Of a stretch of DNA of 32,513 nucleotides, positions 4,534 to 15,128 are shown piece by piece. The position numbers were made by a program, and so were the translations under genes. How positions within the stretch are numbered: position 1 is the stretch's first letter; every line of letters starts with the position of its first letter. Source of the stretch: Candidatus Polarisedimenticolaceae bacterium (GTDB lineage: Bacteria; Acidobacteriota; Polarisedimenticolia; Polarisedimenticolales; DASRJG01); the NCBI GenBank assembly GCA_036376135.1, contig DASVAW010000116.1, forward strand, positions 1-32,513. Reading direction: 5' to 3'. A model generated the notes under the pieces. That model made no database searches and had not been told where the DNA came from. It saw only the letters and a list, made by a program, of their open reading frames with translations.

Positions 4534-5658
4534 TCAGGGTTTTCCGGGTTCCGGGACCGCCGCCTCGATCCCCTGCTTCTGGTAATGACGGATCAGCCAG
4601 CTGGCGAACTTGCTGTCCCCGACCCCCGCCACGACCTCTTCCATGGAGTCGTGCAGCACCCGCTCGTTGACGAGGGCGCCGAGGGTCCCCTGCCCGGAGT
4701 CGATCTTCCCCGCGATCGAGTTCATCCGGGAGACGGTCTCCCGGATGTCCTTCGCCACCGCGTCTCCGTACTCCTTGTCGTACAGCAGGCGGCCGAGAAG
4801 CCCTTCCCGGGATTCGAGCTGGGCGGCGGTGCGTTTGAGGGACGCCGCGGCTTCGGCGAGGTCGGCGACCGCCTGCTTGCTCCTCCCCCCCTCGGAGAGG
4901 AGATCGCCGGCGGCTCCTTCCCCCTTCTCCAGACGCTCGACCGCATCCGCGACCCCGTGGATCGCGCGGCCCAGGTCGTCGGCGCGGGGCTCCATCGACG
5001 GGTCGAACAACATCCGGCCGGCGAATCCCTCCCCCGCGCGCAGCCTCGCCGTCAGCGCCTCGAGGTTCTCGAGCGCGCCCCGCGCCGCCTGGAGCCCCTC
5101 CTTGCCGAACTCCGGGTTCTGGATCATCTCGCCCAGCAGTCCCTTGCCTTCCTCGAGCGGCTCGAGGATCCGACGCAGGGCCAGGGTGATCTCGTTCAGG
5201 TTCTCGGCGATGTCCTCGCCGGTCTCGAGGAAGCGGGAGCCCTCTTGCGTGGGAATCAGCGAGCCCTCCGCGATCTCGGCGCGGCCCGGATCCCCGGGGG
5301 TGATCTCGACGTATTTCTCGCCGCTGAGGTACTGGAGGAAGCGGAGGGCCGCCATCGAGCCCTCGCGGACACGTCCCTGGTAGGCGCGCTGGACGCCGAG
5401 GGTCACCTCGATCCCCGCGCTCGAAGGATCCTGGGACAACCGGACGTCCGTGACCGTCCCCACCTGGACGCCGCTCATCTTCACCGGCGACCCGATCACC
5501 AGACCGTCCGAGCTCTGGAGCACCGCCCGGTACGACGCCTTCTTCGAGAACAGCCGCGACTCCCCGCCGACGGCCATCACCGCCAGGGCGAATACCACGA
5601 GGGCGAGCACGGTGAACCCGCCCACCAGGACGTCTCGACTTCGGTTCTTAGACGCCAT
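4534..5658 (-). CDS. mlaD: MlaD-family MCE-domain protein with C-terminal 38-residue repeats
   Basis: Periplasmic, membrane-anchored substrate-binding component of an Mla-type lipid transporter. The 374 residues start with one transmembrane helix (about 10-31) and an MCE domain (about 43-122, with SSDGLVIGSPVKMSGVQVG). A long helical region follows (150-350). In that region a glycine motif of the form GxGxxGxLL recurs at residues 171, 209, 246, 284 and 322, spacings 38, 37, 38 and 38. E. coli MlaD is about 180 residues, so the tail roughly doubles it. The ATG lies inside the end of mlaF (11-base overlap) behind a GGAGGGG site. The tail could extend the MCE ring into a periplasm-spanning tube; that is inference. 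Confidence 0.93.
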   Translation of the reverse strand: MASKNRSRDVLVGGFTVLALVVFALAVMAVGGESRLFSKKASYRAVLQSSDGLVIGSPVKMSGVQVGTVTDVRLSQDPSSAGIEVTLGVQRAYQGRVREGSMAALRFLQYLSGEKYVEITPGDPGRAEIAEGSLIPTQEGSRFLETGEDIAENLNEITLALRRILEPLEEGKGLLGEMIQNPEFGKEGLQAARGALENLEALTARLRAGEGFAGRMLFDPSMEPRADDLGRAIHGVADAVERLEKGEGAAGDLLSEGGRSKQAVADLAEAAASLKRTAAQLESREGLLGRLLYDKEYGDAVAKDIRETVSRMNSIAGKIDSGQGTLGALVNERVLHDSMEEVVAGVGDSKFASWLIRHYQKQGIEAAVPEPGKP

Positions 5659-6394
5659 GGACCCCTCCGCTCAGGAACTCGCGAAGCAGCGGCTCGTCCG
5701 CCGTCCTCGCCTCGGCGACGGTGCCGTGGAACAGGATGCGTCCCTCGTGCAGGAACGCCAGCCGGTCCGCCACCGCGAAAGCCGACTGGATGTCGTGCGT
5801 CACGACGATCGAGGTGACCCCGAGCCGCCGCTGCAGGCTGCGGATCAGCGCGTTGATCGCGTTCGCCGTGATCGGATCGAGGCCGGTCGTGGGCTCGTCG
5901 TAGAGCAGGCCGGCGGGCGCGAGCGCGATCGCACGGGCGAGGGCGACGCGCTTGCGCATCCCTCCCGAAAGGTCCGAGGGCATCACCTCTTCGATGCCCT
6001 CGAGCTCGACGAGGCCGAGCACCTCGGCGACACGGGCCGCGACGGCTCGCTCGTCCAGGTCGGTGTGCTCGTGCAGGGCGTAGGCGACGTTCTCGTAGAC
6101 GTTCATCGAATCGAACAGCGCGCCCGCCTGGAACAACATCCCGACCTTCTTGCGACACGCGAGGAGCTCGTCCTCGTCGCGAGTCGCGATCTCCTGACCG
6201 TCCACCCACACCTCGCCGCGGTCGGGCCGCTGGAGACCGATCACGTGACGGAGGAGCACCGATTTGCCCGATCCGCTTCCGCCCAGGACGACGAGCGTCT
6301 CGCCGCGGCACACCTCGAGGTCGACGCCCGCGAGGACGACCTTCGGCCCGAAGGCCTTGTGCACGTCGGAGAACCGGATGAAGGCGTCGGCCAC
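5648..6394 (-). CDS. mlaF: ABC transporter ATP-binding protein, MlaF-like
   Basis: Cytoplasmic ATPase driving phospholipid movement with MlaE and MlaD. The 248-residue product carries the Walker A GGSGSGKS, the Q-loop in FQAGALFDSMNV (a stretch characteristic of MlaF/Ttg2A), the signature LSGGMRKRVALARA, the Walker B LLYDEPTTGLDP and the H-loop VTHD. I chose a GTG start at 6394: the mlaE stop lies 8 bases before it, GAGGA overlaps that stop, and the protein then begins at the first ABC strand. A longer in-frame reading would run through mlaE in the wrong frame. Confidence 0.95.
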   Translation of the reverse strand: MADAFIRFSDVHKAFGPKVVLAGVDLEVCRGETLVVLGGSGSGKSVLLRHVIGLQRPDRGEVWVDGQEIATRDEDELLACRKKVGMLFQAGALFDSMNVYENVAYALHEHTDLDERAVAARVAEVLGLVELEGIEEVMPSDLSGGMRKRVALARAIALAPAGLLYDEPTTGLDPITANAINALIRSLQRRLGVTSIVVTHDIQSAFAVADRLAFLHEGRILFHGTVAEARTADEPLLREFLSGGVHGV

Positions 6395-6402
6395 GCGGGT
6401 CC

Positions 6403-7158
6403 TCAGAAGACCATGAACAGCTTGGTCAGGAAGAAATCCGAGATGATCACCGAGATCGACGCCGTCACGACGGTGCGCGTGGTGGCCTTGCCGACCCCGT
6501 CCGCGCCGCCGGTCGCGGTCATGCCGTTGTAACAGGCGATGACTCCGATGAAGAAGCCGAAAAAGAGGGACTTCCCGAGCCCCGACGCGAGGTCGTGAAC
6601 CGACAAGGCGCCGAGCACGTGACTGACGAAGAAGACGCGCCCCTGGCCCACCTCGTAGATCGCCATCAACATCCCGCCGAACAGGCCGATCAGGTCCGCG
6701 AGGACGGTCAGCAGCGGCAGGGTGAGCGTCAACACGCCCACGCGCGGGACCACGAGCTTGCGCACGGGGTCGGCGGCGAGGGCACGCATGGCGTCCACCT
6801 GCTCGGTGACCGCCATCGAGCCGATCTCCGCGGTGATCCCCGCGCCCACCCGCCCCGCGACCATGAGCGCGGTCAGGACCGGCCCCAGCTCGCGGACGAT
6901 CGCGAGCGAGAGCAGGTCCCCCACGAACGTCGTGCCGCCGTACGCCGAGAGCGAATACGCCGTCTGGACGGCGAGGACCATGCCGGTGAACAGCAACGTG
7001 ACGTTGGTGATCGTGAGTGAGCCGACGGCGAGCTCGTAGGCCTGTTCGATCCAGAGCTCGCGCTCGAACCGGCCGGTGAAGGTGCGACGGACGGCCTGCC
7101 ACGCGAGCCCCGTCATGCCCCCGATGTCGGCGAAGGCGCTCCGCAGGAAACCGTCCAT
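6403..7158 (-). CDS. mlaE: ABC transporter permease, MlaE family
   Basis: Inner-membrane permease of 251 residues, the usual size. It contains the conserved MlaE stretch IVRELGPVLTALMVAGRVGAGITAEIGSM in two adjoining parts, followed by VTEQVDAMRALAADP, and about five to six hydrophobic segments. It ends in ISDFFLTKLF. The operon order mlaE-mlaF-mlaD with short gaps or overlaps supports the assignment. No MlaB (STAS) or MlaC (periplasmic carrier) gene is visible in the window. The ATG at 7158 is preceded directly by a GTG (7161), and there is no good Shine-Dalgarno sequence. A well-spaced promoter ends only about 10-13 bases upstream, so the message may be nearly leaderless. Confidence 0.95.
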   Translation of the reverse strand: MDGFLRSAFADIGGMTGLAWQAVRRTFTGRFERELWIEQAYELAVGSLTITNVTLLFTGMVLAVQTAYSLSAYGGTTFVGDLLSLAIVRELGPVLTALMVAGRVGAGITAEIGSMAVTEQVDAMRALAADPVRKLVVPRVGVLTLTLPLLTVLADLIGLFGGMLMAIYEVGQGRVFFVSHVLGALSVHDLASGLGKSLFFGFFIGVIACYNGMTATGGADGVGKATTRTVVTASISVIISDFFLTKLFMVF

Positions 7159-7170
7159 CACGCGCGCCGA

Positions 7171-8413: not shown

Positions 8414-9223
8414 TCACGAGAAGGCGGCGAGCGCGGGAGCCCAGGCCGTGCGCGTCCGGGCGACACCCCGCTCCACCGCCCCGACGACCTCCCCGTGCCG
8501 GATGGCCCGCGCGTCCATCCCGGAGCCGCGGTTGGAGATGCACGCGATCGCCGCGACCCGCAGGCCGAGGTAACGGGCCGCGATCGCCTCCGGGACGGTG
8601 CTCATGGACGCGAGGTCCGCGCCGAGCGCCCGGAGCATCCGGACTTCGGCGGGAGTCTCGTAACAGGGCCCGCGCATCGCGGCGAGCACCCCGGGTCGCG
8701 CCTCCAGCGCCTCGCGCAAGACCGCGCTCCACGCGGCGTCGTAGAGTCCCTGAAGGTCGGGGAACGCCGGATCGCGCCGGAACGCCTCGATCTCGGCGAC
8801 CGGGTCGGTCCCCTGCAGGTTGAGATGATCCTCGACGACGGCGAAGCTCCCGGGGCGATCCGCGTCGAGCAACCCCCCCGCGGCGCAGGTCAGGAGAACC
8901 CCCCGCGCCCCCGCGGCGGCAAGCACGCGCACGGGGAAGACGACCTCCGCTCCCGAGCGTCCCTCGTAGCGATGGACGCGTCCCTTGAAGATCCACACGG
9001 AGCCGGGGGCCGCGGCCACCCCTCCCCCGTGCCCGTCCACGCGCGAGACCGGAAACCCCGGGATCGCTTCTCTGGGCACCGGCTCCCCCGCGCCGAGCGC
9101 CTCCGCCAGCGGGCCCCATCCCGACCCGAGGATGACGCCGAGTCGAGGGGCGCCCAGCCGCTCGCGCAGCAACGTCGCCGCCTCGAGCGTCTCGTCGTCG
9201 AGCACTCCCCAGGGTTTGAACAT
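8414..9223 (-). CDS. Purine nucleoside phosphorylase (trimeric PNP family)
   Basis: Cytosolic enzyme cleaving purine nucleosides with phosphate to base and ribose-1-phosphate. The 269-residue product has GVILGSGWG (phosphate-binding loop), GARGVLLTCAAGG, GPCYETPAEVRMLRALGAD and MSTVPEAIAARYLGLRV, all signature stretches of the trimeric PNP/MTAP family. CISNRGSGM stands where most members have CxTNxAxG (base-binding region). The ATG shares one base with the stop of the upstream outer-membrane gene (TGATG at 9225-9221), so the two are translationally coupled although their functions look unrelated. Methylthioadenosine phosphorylase is less likely given the MSTVPE motif. Confidence 0.92.
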   Translation of the reverse strand: MFKPWGVLDDETLEAATLLRERLGAPRLGVILGSGWGPLAEALGAGEPVPREAIPGFPVSRVDGHGGGVAAAPGSVWIFKGRVHRYEGRSGAEVVFPVRVLAAAGARGVLLTCAAGGLLDADRPGSFAVVEDHLNLQGTDPVAEIEAFRRDPAFPDLQGLYDAAWSAVLREALEARPGVLAAMRGPCYETPAEVRMLRALGADLASMSTVPEAIAARYLGLRVAAIACISNRGSGMDARAIRHGEVVGAVERGVARTRTAWAPALAAFS

Positions 9224-12200
9224 CAGAACAGCTTCAGCACGGTGAACAGGAACTCCTGCTTCCCGGAGAGGCCGGGGAGATCGGACGCCAGCGCGCGGCC
9301 GTAGCTGAACGCGATGACCGTCTTCCACGGCCCCACCACGTTGAACGAGAGCCCCGCCCCGGTGAAGCTCCGCCAGCGGTCGTCGCGCTCCTCGTCGCGC
9401 GTGCGACCCTGGTCCACCGCGAGGTCGAATCGGATCGCGCCGAACAGGTTGAACGCGTACCCCGCGCGTGCGAAGTACCCCTTGTCGAAGCGCACCCCGG
9501 TGCCCGCGAATCCGTTCAGACGGTCGTCGCCGAACAGGCCGAAGCCGTAGCGGCTGAACCGGTCGAGGTCCCGCCCGCCGAGGTAGTTCGCCTCGACGCG
9601 CAGCTTCTGGAACTTCGGCAGGTACCACTCCTTGAAGACGCCGGCGTCCCACTGGAGGAAGCTCTCGTGCGTCGGGTCGAACTCCGATCCGGCGGGGTCG
9701 CCCCACTCCTCCCACGACGATCGGGTCGAGCCGGAGACCGATCCACGCACGGTCCACCCCCGCCGATTGAACTCGCCCTGGAAGGTGCCGCGAAGCTCGG
9801 TGTGATCCTGCGGGAGCACGAACGCCGGGTCGGTCTCGTCGTCCCGGAAGTACTGCCGCACGATCGCGGTCCCGACGACCGTGAACTTCACGAATTGCCC
9901 GGCGGGGATGCCCAGGCGCGCGGAGACGATCTGGTTCCGGTCCTGGATGCGCTGCGAGACGACTTCCTCCCCGTCCTCGAACACCTTCTCCTCCCCCTTG
10001 ATGAGGAAGAAGACCCCTTCGAGCGTCAGATCGACGCGCGAGCCGCCCAGGGAGGGCTCGGTGAAGTTGACGAAGTTGACGACGCCGGCGGCGAAGATGT
10101 TCGCCTGCCACCCCTTCTTCAGGAAGTCGTAGTCGAACCAGTTCACCCCGCCCAGCGGAACGACGCCGTCGCTCGCGTCGTCCTTGTAGGCGCCCACGGC
10201 GGCGAACAGCGCGCTCGTGTCGGCGGTCGCTCGCACCGTGCGCGTGCCGTCCTGCTGCCGCTCGAGGTAGCGGAATCCCTCGTCGGTGTCCCGGAGCATG
10301 CGGTTGGACGAGGCGTACGCGTCGTCCCGCGCCTTCGCGAACTCGGGCTTCTTCGGGTTGATCTCGAGCGACTCGAAGGCGAGCTCGCGCGTGACGACGA
10401 GGTTCCGACCCCCGACCGTCCAGAGCTGCTGCCCTTCGACGCGGGCGAGCATCCAGTACGTCTCGCCGTCGGGGCCGGTGTACGGCCGGTAGAAGTCGAT
10501 TTCCTCGTTGGAGAGGACGGGCGGCTCGAGGTTCGTCTGGACGAGGGAGGTCTTCAGCCGGACGAAGGTCTCGCGGTCGATCCACACGCGGCCGCGGTAC
10601 AGGCTCAGCGGCGCTTCGGGGTCCTCGGGCTCGAAGGCGAGGACGTAGGCGGGCCGGCCGTCGACGTCGTCCTCGTCGAGCAGGCGGTACGCGTATTTCT
10701 TGTCGAGCGTCAGGTCGAGCGGGAGGGTCGCGACCTTGTCCGGCTGCACGATCGGCAGCTCGGGGATGTTCTTCCACTTCACCGGATTGCCGTTGATGAA
10801 GTAGTCGGTCTGCTCCCACTCGAGGGCAGCCCCGCGCTCCCAGAAGTAGTTGCTCGCGATCCCGACGTCCACCGTCGAGCCCCCTTGCGCGAGCTTGAAG
10901 TGGTAGTCGAGCCGGCCCCTCCCCTTCCAGCGGTCGAGCCGGTCGTCCTGGACCTGCTGGACCTGGCGGTGACGCGCGAGGATCTCCTCGGCGGTCAATC
11001 CGCGCCGGCCGGCGACCTCGAGGTCCTGCCGTTCCAGCTCGAGTCCCGGCACGTTGGCGGCGGCGCGCTCCCAGACGACGAGCAGCGGGTGGTCCTCGAG
11101 CACGATGCGCAGCGCGCGTCGGCTCTGGCCGGGCACCTCGACGCCGCCGGTCTTGAGGTCGGCGCCGTTCGTCGGGTCGAGCACGCGCGGGTCCTTCACG
11201 TCGATCGTGTCGAGGACGAGCCGGGCCTGCGGCTGGGTGCGTCGATCCGCCCCCTCGAGCGGCGCGTCGTAGACGACGAGCGTGCGGAAGTCCTTCTGAT
11301 GGAAGAAGCGGCCGAGCACGCGGTAACGGTCGTGCGGCGCTCCGTCCGGGGTCCGGATCGACAACCCCCCGGACGGCGCCGGCGAGAACTCCGGCTCGAG
11401 ACGCGCCTGGGTCCCGACGAGCCATCGTCCCTCGGCTCCCGCGGCCGACTCCGAGGTCGGCGCGGCGAAGACGGCCTGCGCGGAAGCGGCGAGCGCCTCG
11501 ACCGCGCGAGCGACCGTCGAGAACGGCGGCGCCCCCGCGGGCGCGTCGACGTAGATCCACAACGCGGGCGCGGGGGGGTGGAGCAGTGCTTCGGCGAGGA
11601 AGGCGGCGACCGTCTCCCCCACGGGCCCGTCCCCCGCGCGAACCGGCAGCACGTCGATGTAGGGCGCGGTGTCGTTGGACCAGACCGCGCGCTGCACGTC
11701 GAGGCCGGACGCCTCCACCGCCCCCTGCGCGATCCGCACCTCCGCCCCGGCGGCCCGACCTTCCGCGCGCGCCGCCACCGCGGCGTTCTTGAGGAAGAAG
11801 GCGTAGACGGCGGGATCCCCGCCGCGTTCGGGACCCGCGCCGAGCTCGAAGGTCCCGACCTTCCCCGCGAAGGCCCGGACCGCGCTGCGCACGAAGGCGA
11901 CCCACGGTTCGAGCGGAGGCTTGCCGTCGCTCCCCGCCGGGTGCAGGTCGTTCGCCCCCTCCAGCGCGAGGACCACGTGGTGGCCGGCACCCTCGAGTTG
12001 CGCGATCGCCGGCTCGAGGCGCGACCAGTCGTACACGCCGGGCTCGCGCTCGATCTCCGACCAGGGCGCCGCGAGCCGGATCCGGAGGCCGCCCCCCGCC
12101 GCGGCGAGCGCGGCGGCCTCCCGGGGCTGCGCGAGCATCCCCAGGGCCGGCCCGCCGAGGGGGACCGGTTCCTCGGCCGGGATCGGGACGCAGGCCAGCG

Positions 12201-12234
12201 CGATCGTCGCGATCGCGCAGCAGGACAATCGCAT
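9223..12234 (-). CDS. Large envelope protein: glycosidase-like domain + LolA-like domain + C-terminal beta-barrel
   Basis: A single uninterrupted 1003-residue frame. Residues 1-20 form a signal peptide; a cysteine at 15 is preceded by ALA, a weak lipobox. Residues about 40-290 resemble a TIM-barrel glycoside hydrolase of the GH39/GH5 type ([16 protein letters not shown]). The expected W-N-E-P catalytic loop reads [11 protein letters not shown], so the usual acid/base Glu seems absent. From about 410, [19 protein letters not shown] starts a LolA/LolB-like beta-rich region reaching about 640. The last ~300 residues have alternating aromatic strands, an Omp85-like [14 protein letters not shown] stretch and a terminal phenylalanine, as in outer-membrane barrels. 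The ATG has GAGGAG before it. The domain architecture is not one I recognise; function unknown. Confidence 0.88.
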
Positions 12235-14345: not shown

Positions 14346-15128
14346 GTGCCGCGACCCCGCGTGATCACCCTCACGACCGACTTCGGGGTCTCCGATTCGT
14401 GGGTCGGCCAGATGAAGGGGGTGATCCTCGACATCTGCGCCGACGCCGTCGTCGTCGACCTCACGCACGACGTACCCGCGCACGACGTGCCCGCCGGGGC
14501 TTACGCGCTCGTCTGCGGCTTCGGCGCGTTCCCCGAGGGGACGATCCACGTCGCCGTCGTGGACCCGGGGGTGGGGACCGATCGGAAGCGCCTCGTCGTC
14601 CGCGCCCGGGGCCACTGGTTCGTCGCGCCGGACAACGGCCTGCTCACGCGGGTCGTGCGCGGCGCGGACTCGGTCGCGGCGTGGTCGATCGAGGAGCCGC
14701 ACTACCTCCGCGCCTCCGTCGCGGCGACCTTCGAGGGTCGCGACGTTTTCGCCCCCGCCGCGGCGTGGATCGCGCGGGGCACCGAGGCCTCCCACCTCGG
14801 CCCGGCGGTCCGGGAGCTCGTGATGCTCCCCGACCGGACGCCCGAGCTCGTCCCCGGGAAGGAAGTCGCCGTCCCGGTCGTCGCGATCGACCGGTTCGGC
14901 AACGTCGCGCTCGACCTGCAGGGCGGCCGCTTCGCGGGGCGCGTGCTCGTGGGGAACGCGGTGGTCGAGGCGTTCCACCGGACCTACGCCGACGCTCCGG
15001 ACGGACGGCCCTTCCTCCTGTGGAACTCGTCCGGTTTCCTCGAGATCGCGGTTCGCGAGGGGCGCGCCGCGGACCTGCTCGGCCTCGCCCCCGGCGCCGA
15101 GGTTCGGCTCGTTCCCGGCGTGCTATAA
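14346..15128 (+). CDS. DUF62 / SAM hydroxide adenosyltransferase-like protein
   Basis: A 260-residue member of the family that contains SAM-dependent chlorinase/fluorinase and the widespread SAM hydrolases (products adenosine and methionine). The start LTTDFGVSDSWVGQMKG, the VVDPGVGTDR loop, APDNGLL and the C-terminal barrel with LWNSSGFLEIAVREG are all diagnostic. Asp73 and Arg80 match the Asp/Arg pair of the hydrolase triad, with the same seven-residue spacing. At the usual TFHGRD motif this protein reads TFEGRD, so the third triad residue appears to be Glu130. GTG start, three bases after hldE. Halogenase activity is unlikely: those members are rare and carry different active-site loops. 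Confidence 0.9.
   Translation: MPRPRVITLTTDFGVSDSWVGQMKGVILDICADAVVVDLTHDVPAHDVPAGAYALVCGFGAFPEGTIHVAVVDPGVGTDRKRLVVRARGHWFVAPDNGLLTRVVRGADSVAAWSIEEPHYLRASVAATFEGRDVFAPAAAWIARGTEASHLGPAVRELVMLPDRTPELVPGKEVAVPVVAIDRFGNVALDLQGGRFAGRVLVGNAVVEAFHRTYADAPDGRPFLLWNSSGFLEIAVREGRAADLLGLAPGAEVRLVPGVL

Follow-up and report, generated by a model that had tools for sequence, protein, structure and literature searches.

A predicted outer-membrane protein family in which GH39-like, LolA-like and Omp85-like barrel domains are joined in a single chain

The locus considered here raises the question of what is encoded by one long open frame in which a glycosidase-like, a LolA-like and a barrel-like region appear to follow one another, and of what a protein of this kind might do. 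The frame lies within the window--that is, within the whole stretch of 32,513 nucleotides that was analysed, which is contig 116 of an assembly of 4.38 Mb that is 97.6% complete. A first-pass annotation placed the frame at 9223-12234 and gave it 1003 residues, both of which are correct, but omitted the strand: the gene lies on the minus strand, running from 12234 to 9223. (A plus-strand reading of the same interval was rejected, as it gives an overlapping frame that is meaningless.) The protein begins with MRLSCC... and ends with FTVLKLF; its gene has a third-codon GC content of 0.94 and obtains the top coding score in the window from a codon-based gene caller. The gene and the regions of its product are as follows.

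9223..12234, minus strand: fusion gene (ATG start, 1003 codons plus stop; homologues known)
12172..12234, minus strand: candidate signal peptide, residues 1-21 (hydrophobic core, small residues before EEPV)
11410..12153, minus strand: GH39/PslG-like (beta/alpha)-barrel, residues ~28-275, predicted to be catalytically dead (PslG profile match, GH39-like enzyme L021, hhalign)
11833..11835, minus strand: site at which the NEP motif of active enzymes has its general acid/base Glu; the window protein has Gly134, within GAGP (alignment to the WNEP of PslG and L021)
11548..11550, minus strand: column of the catalytic nucleophile Glu, occupied by Val229 in the window protein (LWIYV versus LWQGE; profile-profile alignment)
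11020..11394, minus strand: putative beta-sandwich, residues ~281-405, of the kind that follows the barrel in GH39-type enzymes (inside the longer hhalign alignment)
10231..11004, minus strand: LolA/RseB-like domain, residues ~411-668 (PF17131, PF03888, PDB 4z48 and 3bk5)
9226..10167, minus strand: predicted outer-membrane beta-barrel, Omp85-like, residues ~690-1003 (strand count, hhalign to Omp85)
9478..9519, minus strand: L6-like motif, residues 906-919 (aligned to Omp85 (V/I)RG(F/Y))
9406..9414, minus strand: DxG motif D941-Q-G943, counterpart of the Omp85 strand-13 (F/G)xDxG (Omp85 alignment)
9226..9252, minus strand: C-terminal FLFTVLKLF, candidate BAM beta-signal (family column counts)

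That these regions belong to one protein, as was first proposed from this single frame, is confirmed by homologues of the same length, domain order and ends in 49 of the 100 related genomes searched; this rules out chance or a MAG artefact as the origin of the frame and of the fusion. The protein is present in most genomes of its own class, several of the class genomes without a hit being incomplete. Homologue loci were retrieved to the number of 40, and the family alignment (A1) holds 38 sequences; most members comprise 960-1050 residues, with a hydrophobic leader at the start and Phe or Trp at the end; in other classes identity falls to 23-30% while the domain order is unchanged. The N-termini of relatives resemble the first 21 residues of the window protein, which are probably a Sec-type signal peptide. 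Three shorter members (L060-L062, of about 825-845 residues) keep only the part matching window residues ~397-996--namely, the LolA-like domain and the barrel; in place of the GH39-like part they carry a shorter N-terminus that is unrelated or eroded. Some genomes (G016, G020, G028, G036 and G070) encode a second copy that has diverged. No match to the fusion protein was obtained in NCBIfam, PHROGs, plasmid or single-sequence PDB searches or in scans of viral contigs, and a genome-contig scan with the single protein returned only active GH39-like enzymes, which served as catalytic references. Judged by its sequence, the fusion is a conserved, previously undescribed family of outer-membrane proteins, in which a GH39-like domain, a LolA-like domain and an Omp85-like barrel share one chain.

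The identities of these domains rest on profile methods. For the N-terminal domain, a single-sequence Pfam search gives a sub-threshold GH42 match only. When searched against the PDB, the family profile matches PslG (4zn2/5bx9; E 1.6e-7), and locus L021 encodes a genuine GH39-like enzyme (with WNEPN and GECG; PF01229, E 3.6e-10) that matches the window protein by BLASTP (2e-13) and also many members of the family in their N-terminal part (best E 5e-20). In hhalign comparisons the N-terminal domain (~28-405) aligns with the GH39-like target at 99.8% (E 1.8e-29), or at 99.4% (E 3.8e-21) with default settings; the other domains of the fusion protein yield nothing against the same target. The GH-A-like region recognized earlier is therefore, on both profile and profile-profile matches with null controls, specifically GH39/PslG-like. 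An AlphaFold model of residues 1-412, computed with two GH39 rows, has a pLDDT of 39; in this low-confidence model the beta-sandwich region is beta-rich, and a Foldseek search with the model ranks PslG first, which is not independent because the GH39 rows were part of the model input.

The same alignments indicate that the fold has lost its catalytic residues. At the acid/base column Glu occurs in none of the 33 members having a residue there (Gly in the window protein), and in a 14-sequence profile the WNEP of PslG stands opposite 'adap' of the family. At the nucleophile column, which is less certain than the acid/base column, the window protein has Val229, and the family region around it (strand 7) contains no conserved Glu. 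Since the acid/base Glu is absent from 33 of 33 members and the nucleophile is Val here, the loss of the NEP loop that was suspected from this one protein extends to the family: in the members sampled the GH39-like domain is, by its sequence, a pseudo-enzyme rather than an active GH39. The best solved relative, PslG of Pseudomonas aeruginosa, has a homologous (beta/alpha)-barrel, but is an active endo-beta-glucosidase whose catalysis needs Glu165 and Glu276 (PMC11912335), whereas the fusion protein lacks Glu at both positions and carries the fold fused to LolA-like and barrel domains.

Conservation is concentrated elsewhere. The LolA/RseB-like domain is the most conserved part of the protein, with a mean identity of 46%, as against 25% in the N-terminal barrel and 23% in the beta-sandwich, the least conserved parts; it is thus likely to be the functional core. 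Its likeness to proteins of the LolA/LolB/RseB fold (PF17131, PF03888, PF03548), which the first-pass annotation had read from the start of the domain, is supported by Pfam and PDB profile matches: PF17131 (LolA_like) weakly matches 32 of the 38 members (E down to 4.5e-6, the matches listed falling below the curated cut-off), PF03888 (MucB_RseB) likewise weakly matches 21 of the 38, and the PDB matches are to 4z48, which is uncharacterised, and 3bk5, a putative outer-membrane lipoprotein-sorting protein. LolA-type domains bind acyl chains. Unlike those proteins, the fusion protein would be anchored in the membrane through its own barrel. A role as replacement for LolA was rejected, as canonical LolA is encoded separately: it occurs in 98 of the 100 genomes, with two matches in the genome of the window.

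The remaining part bears the marks of an outer-membrane barrel. A home-made hydrophobic-alternation profile predictor finds 16 amphipathic strand-like segments in 324 residues, versus 7.5 ± 2.0 (maximum 13) in column shuffles; the terminal residue is Phe or Trp in 30 of the 38 members, and the third-last is Lys or Arg in 31. The barrel ending in Phe that had been read from the window protein alone is thereby supported, and so is its proposed resemblance to Omp85, which proves to be remote but collinear: hhalign aligns the barrel with 24 Omp85 barrels of relatives at 87.3% (E 3.8e-6) over 253 columns, versus 0.2% for the reversed Omp85 target. (A smaller alignment of close relatives gives 45%, and subsets of Omp85 give 1-62%.) LptD was rejected as a relative of the barrel (hhalign 0.1%, against an LptD set of six sequences only). 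Direct HMM searches against Omp85 match 28 of the 38 members versus 8 with reversed decoys, the best E being 0.0027 versus 0.43, a modest advantage that is consistent with a remote similarity.

Omp85 proteins carry the motifs (V/I)RG(F/Y) in L6 and (F/G)xDxG in strand 13 (PMC4490367), opposite which the window protein has LNGF and VDQG. The strict L6 form is absent here, Asn occupying the place of Arg; across the family hydrophobic-x-G-F/Y is common and Arg is the most frequent residue before the invariant Gly, yet occurs in 15 of the 38 members. In strand 13 the window protein has DxG without the preceding Phe or Gly, and 33 of the 38 members have D/E-x-A/G. Relative to Omp85/TpsB proteins (BamA, TamA, FhaC, PlpD and 'noNterm'), then, there is collinear similarity over about 250 barrel columns together with relaxed L6 and strand-13 motifs; the differences are the replaced L6 Arg, the absence of POTRA matches in Pfam scans of the family and of a PF01103 match in the window protein. 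An N-terminus of this kind is absent from the ten Omp85 subfamilies as given in the available part of a published survey (PMC4104836). The barrel is probably derived from Omp85, even though strict tests of membership came out negative. AlphaFold, applied to residues 400-1003 alone without usable homologues, gives a pLDDT of 33. As a separate observation, many genomes (G000:C51, G001:C18, G002:C81 and others) contain, besides an Omp85 match of BamA size, one within an open frame of 2000-2800 codons.

The nearest known architecture is DUF5686 (PF18939) of Bacteroidota. The first-pass annotation knew of no described protein of this architecture, which holds for the order of GH39-like, LolA-like and barrel domains but not for the LolA-like domain, which DUF5686 shares. 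The Pfam family is weakly matched by three members of the fusion family (best E 0.0013, at 17.7 bits versus a cut-off of 39.2). For a comparison domain by domain, 21 DUF5686 proteins were taken from genomes belonging to the same phylum as L021; here the LolA-like domains reach 97.3% (E 2.7e-11), as against 0.1-0.2% for reversed controls. The two barrels aligned directly give 3.8% and no alignment, and the DUF5686 barrel reaches 56% against Omp85. Thus the LolA-like domain is homologous, size and domain order are similar, and the C-terminal barrel-like region is possibly related; in contrast, DUF5686 has its own, CarboxypepD_reg-like N-terminus where the fusion protein has the GH39-like fold. 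Because the LolA-like domain and barrel occur there with a different N-terminus, both families likely represent a core of LolA-like domain and barrel in front of which the N-terminal module can be exchanged. The open-access papers searched contain no mention of DUF5686.

The reading favoured here, which is tentative and falls somewhat short of probable, is that the fusion protein serves as an outer-membrane acceptor and inserter of an acylated substrate (a lipid, lipoprotein or glycolipid). Its N-terminal domains would hang in the periplasm, at the place that POTRA domains occupy in Omp85 proteins; the LolA-like half-barrel would take up the acylated substrate (lipoprotein, phospholipid or glycolipid) from the inner membrane and hand it to the Omp85-like barrel, which would insert or flip it into the outer membrane; and the dead glycosidase fold might read the glycan of the substrate or dock a partner. 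Overall, the protein would combine the role of a LolB-type acceptor with that of an insertase barrel. What speaks for this, at the same tentative level, is the spread of the family, its constant architecture, the GH39/PslG homology with loss of the catalytic residues across the family, the conservation of the LolA-like domain, the similarity of the barrel to Omp85, and the linkage to mlaE and absence of MlaA described below; by analogy, the LolA-like domain also precedes a barrel-like region in DUF5686, and L060-L062 keep just these two parts. A published Borrelia cluster, in which a Lol-type ABC transporter and a LolA-like protein occur together with a barrel of the Omp85 type (PMC13078400), may count in its favour as a further analogy. 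Weighing against it are the sub-cut-off LolA Pfam matches, the remoteness of the Omp85 similarity, the L6 Arg in 15 of the 38 members, and a gene linkage that might be ancestral synteny.

That linkage concerns the genes downstream of the fusion gene, on the same strand; plsC runs opposite.

8414-9223, minus strand: pnp, purine nucleoside phosphorylase-like, next gene downstream of the fusion gene
6403-7161, minus strand: mlaE (PF02405)
5648-6394, minus strand: mlaF (PF00005)
4534-5625, minus strand: mlaD (PF02470)

At 9221-9225 the fusion gene and pnp overlap by 1 base, stop codon against start, which suggests translational coupling; pnp is kept as neighbour in few relatives only. On the other side, a SAM hydroxide adenosyltransferase gene (window 14361-15128) is among the most frequent neighbours, recurring at 15 of 41 loci, directly upstream in 12. 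In 20 class genomes the fusion gene and mlaE share a contig. In 18 of these mlaE follows downstream in the same orientation, at no more than about 15 kb and with variable genes between; in one it lies at 34 kb and in one far apart. MlaA, moreover, was found in 0 of the 100 genomes searched (controls positive), while MlaE is present in 96. These observations raise the possibility of a functional link to the MlaEFD transporter, and in particular of an outer-membrane partner that stands in for the absent MlaA (and MlaC), its LolA-like domain exchanging phospholipids with the outer membrane. This specific reading is nonetheless unlikely: the linkage is confined to one class, no fusion gene being close to mlaE outside it; MlaE occurs without the fusion protein in about half of the phylum sample; and the glycosidase fold is left unexplained by Mla. 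Because the genes upstream of the fusion gene are equally syntenic, so that the whole block is conserved, the mlaEFD linkage is suggestive only and may be plain ancestral synteny. In the neighbourhoods compared outside the class, no conserved operon partner was found.

Two other readings are distinctly improbable. According to one, the protein is a porin for polysaccharide export or surface display, in which the dead PslG-like domain guides exopolysaccharide to the barrel, by analogy with the glycosidase-type proteins that accompany export in other systems of this sort. PslG, the closest solved relative of that domain, is indeed encoded in an exopolysaccharide cluster (PMC11912335), and the window contains nucleotide-sugar and heptose genes; yet the neighbourhoods compared show no conserved polysaccharide-export neighbour, the best-conserved domain is the LolA-like rather than the sugar domain, some members are without the glycosidase part, and the barrel is Omp85-like. 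According to the other, the protein is an accessory machine of the Omp85 type that inserts or secretes proteins, its POTRA domains replaced by the LolA-like and glycosidase-like ones. Besides the remote similarity of the barrel, this has in its favour that the Omp85 proteins studied generally serve the assembly or translocation of proteins (PMC4104836). The Pfam scans, however, give no POTRA, no conserved secreted partner lies beside the gene, and the genomes have Omp85 proteins of their own as well. The binding of acyl chains by LolA-type domains likewise speaks against this reading. Finally, it is very unlikely that the protein is structural or sensory, with the barrel as a mere anchor for periplasmic domains acting as an RseB-like stress sensor. 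The MucB_RseB matches in 21 of the 38 members, alongside those of LolA_like, speak for this; against it, the neighbourhoods examined show no recurring regulatory gene, and the Omp85-like motifs argue for more than an anchor.

The acceptor and inserter of acylated substrates is accordingly ranked, still tentatively, ahead of the Mla-partner, polysaccharide-export and protein-insertion readings. A more specific form of it, which is itself unlikely, holds that the barrel is an Omp85-derived insertase for lipid or glycolipid rather than protein, its POTRA domains replaced by a LolA-like lipid carrier and by a dead glycosidase for recognition of the sugar headgroup; if true, the Omp85 superfamily would extend beyond protein handling, and this family and DUF5686 would together define a cross-phylum LolA-Omp85 class. 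More generally, MlaA, and with it the known outer-membrane end of the MCE pathway, is missing from the phylum sample. A protein found in most of its class, in which a lipid-carrier fold and an Omp85-like barrel are physically united and a glycosidase fold serves anew without catalysis, is a testable candidate for the entry of lipids or lipoproteins into the outer membrane outside Proteobacteria.
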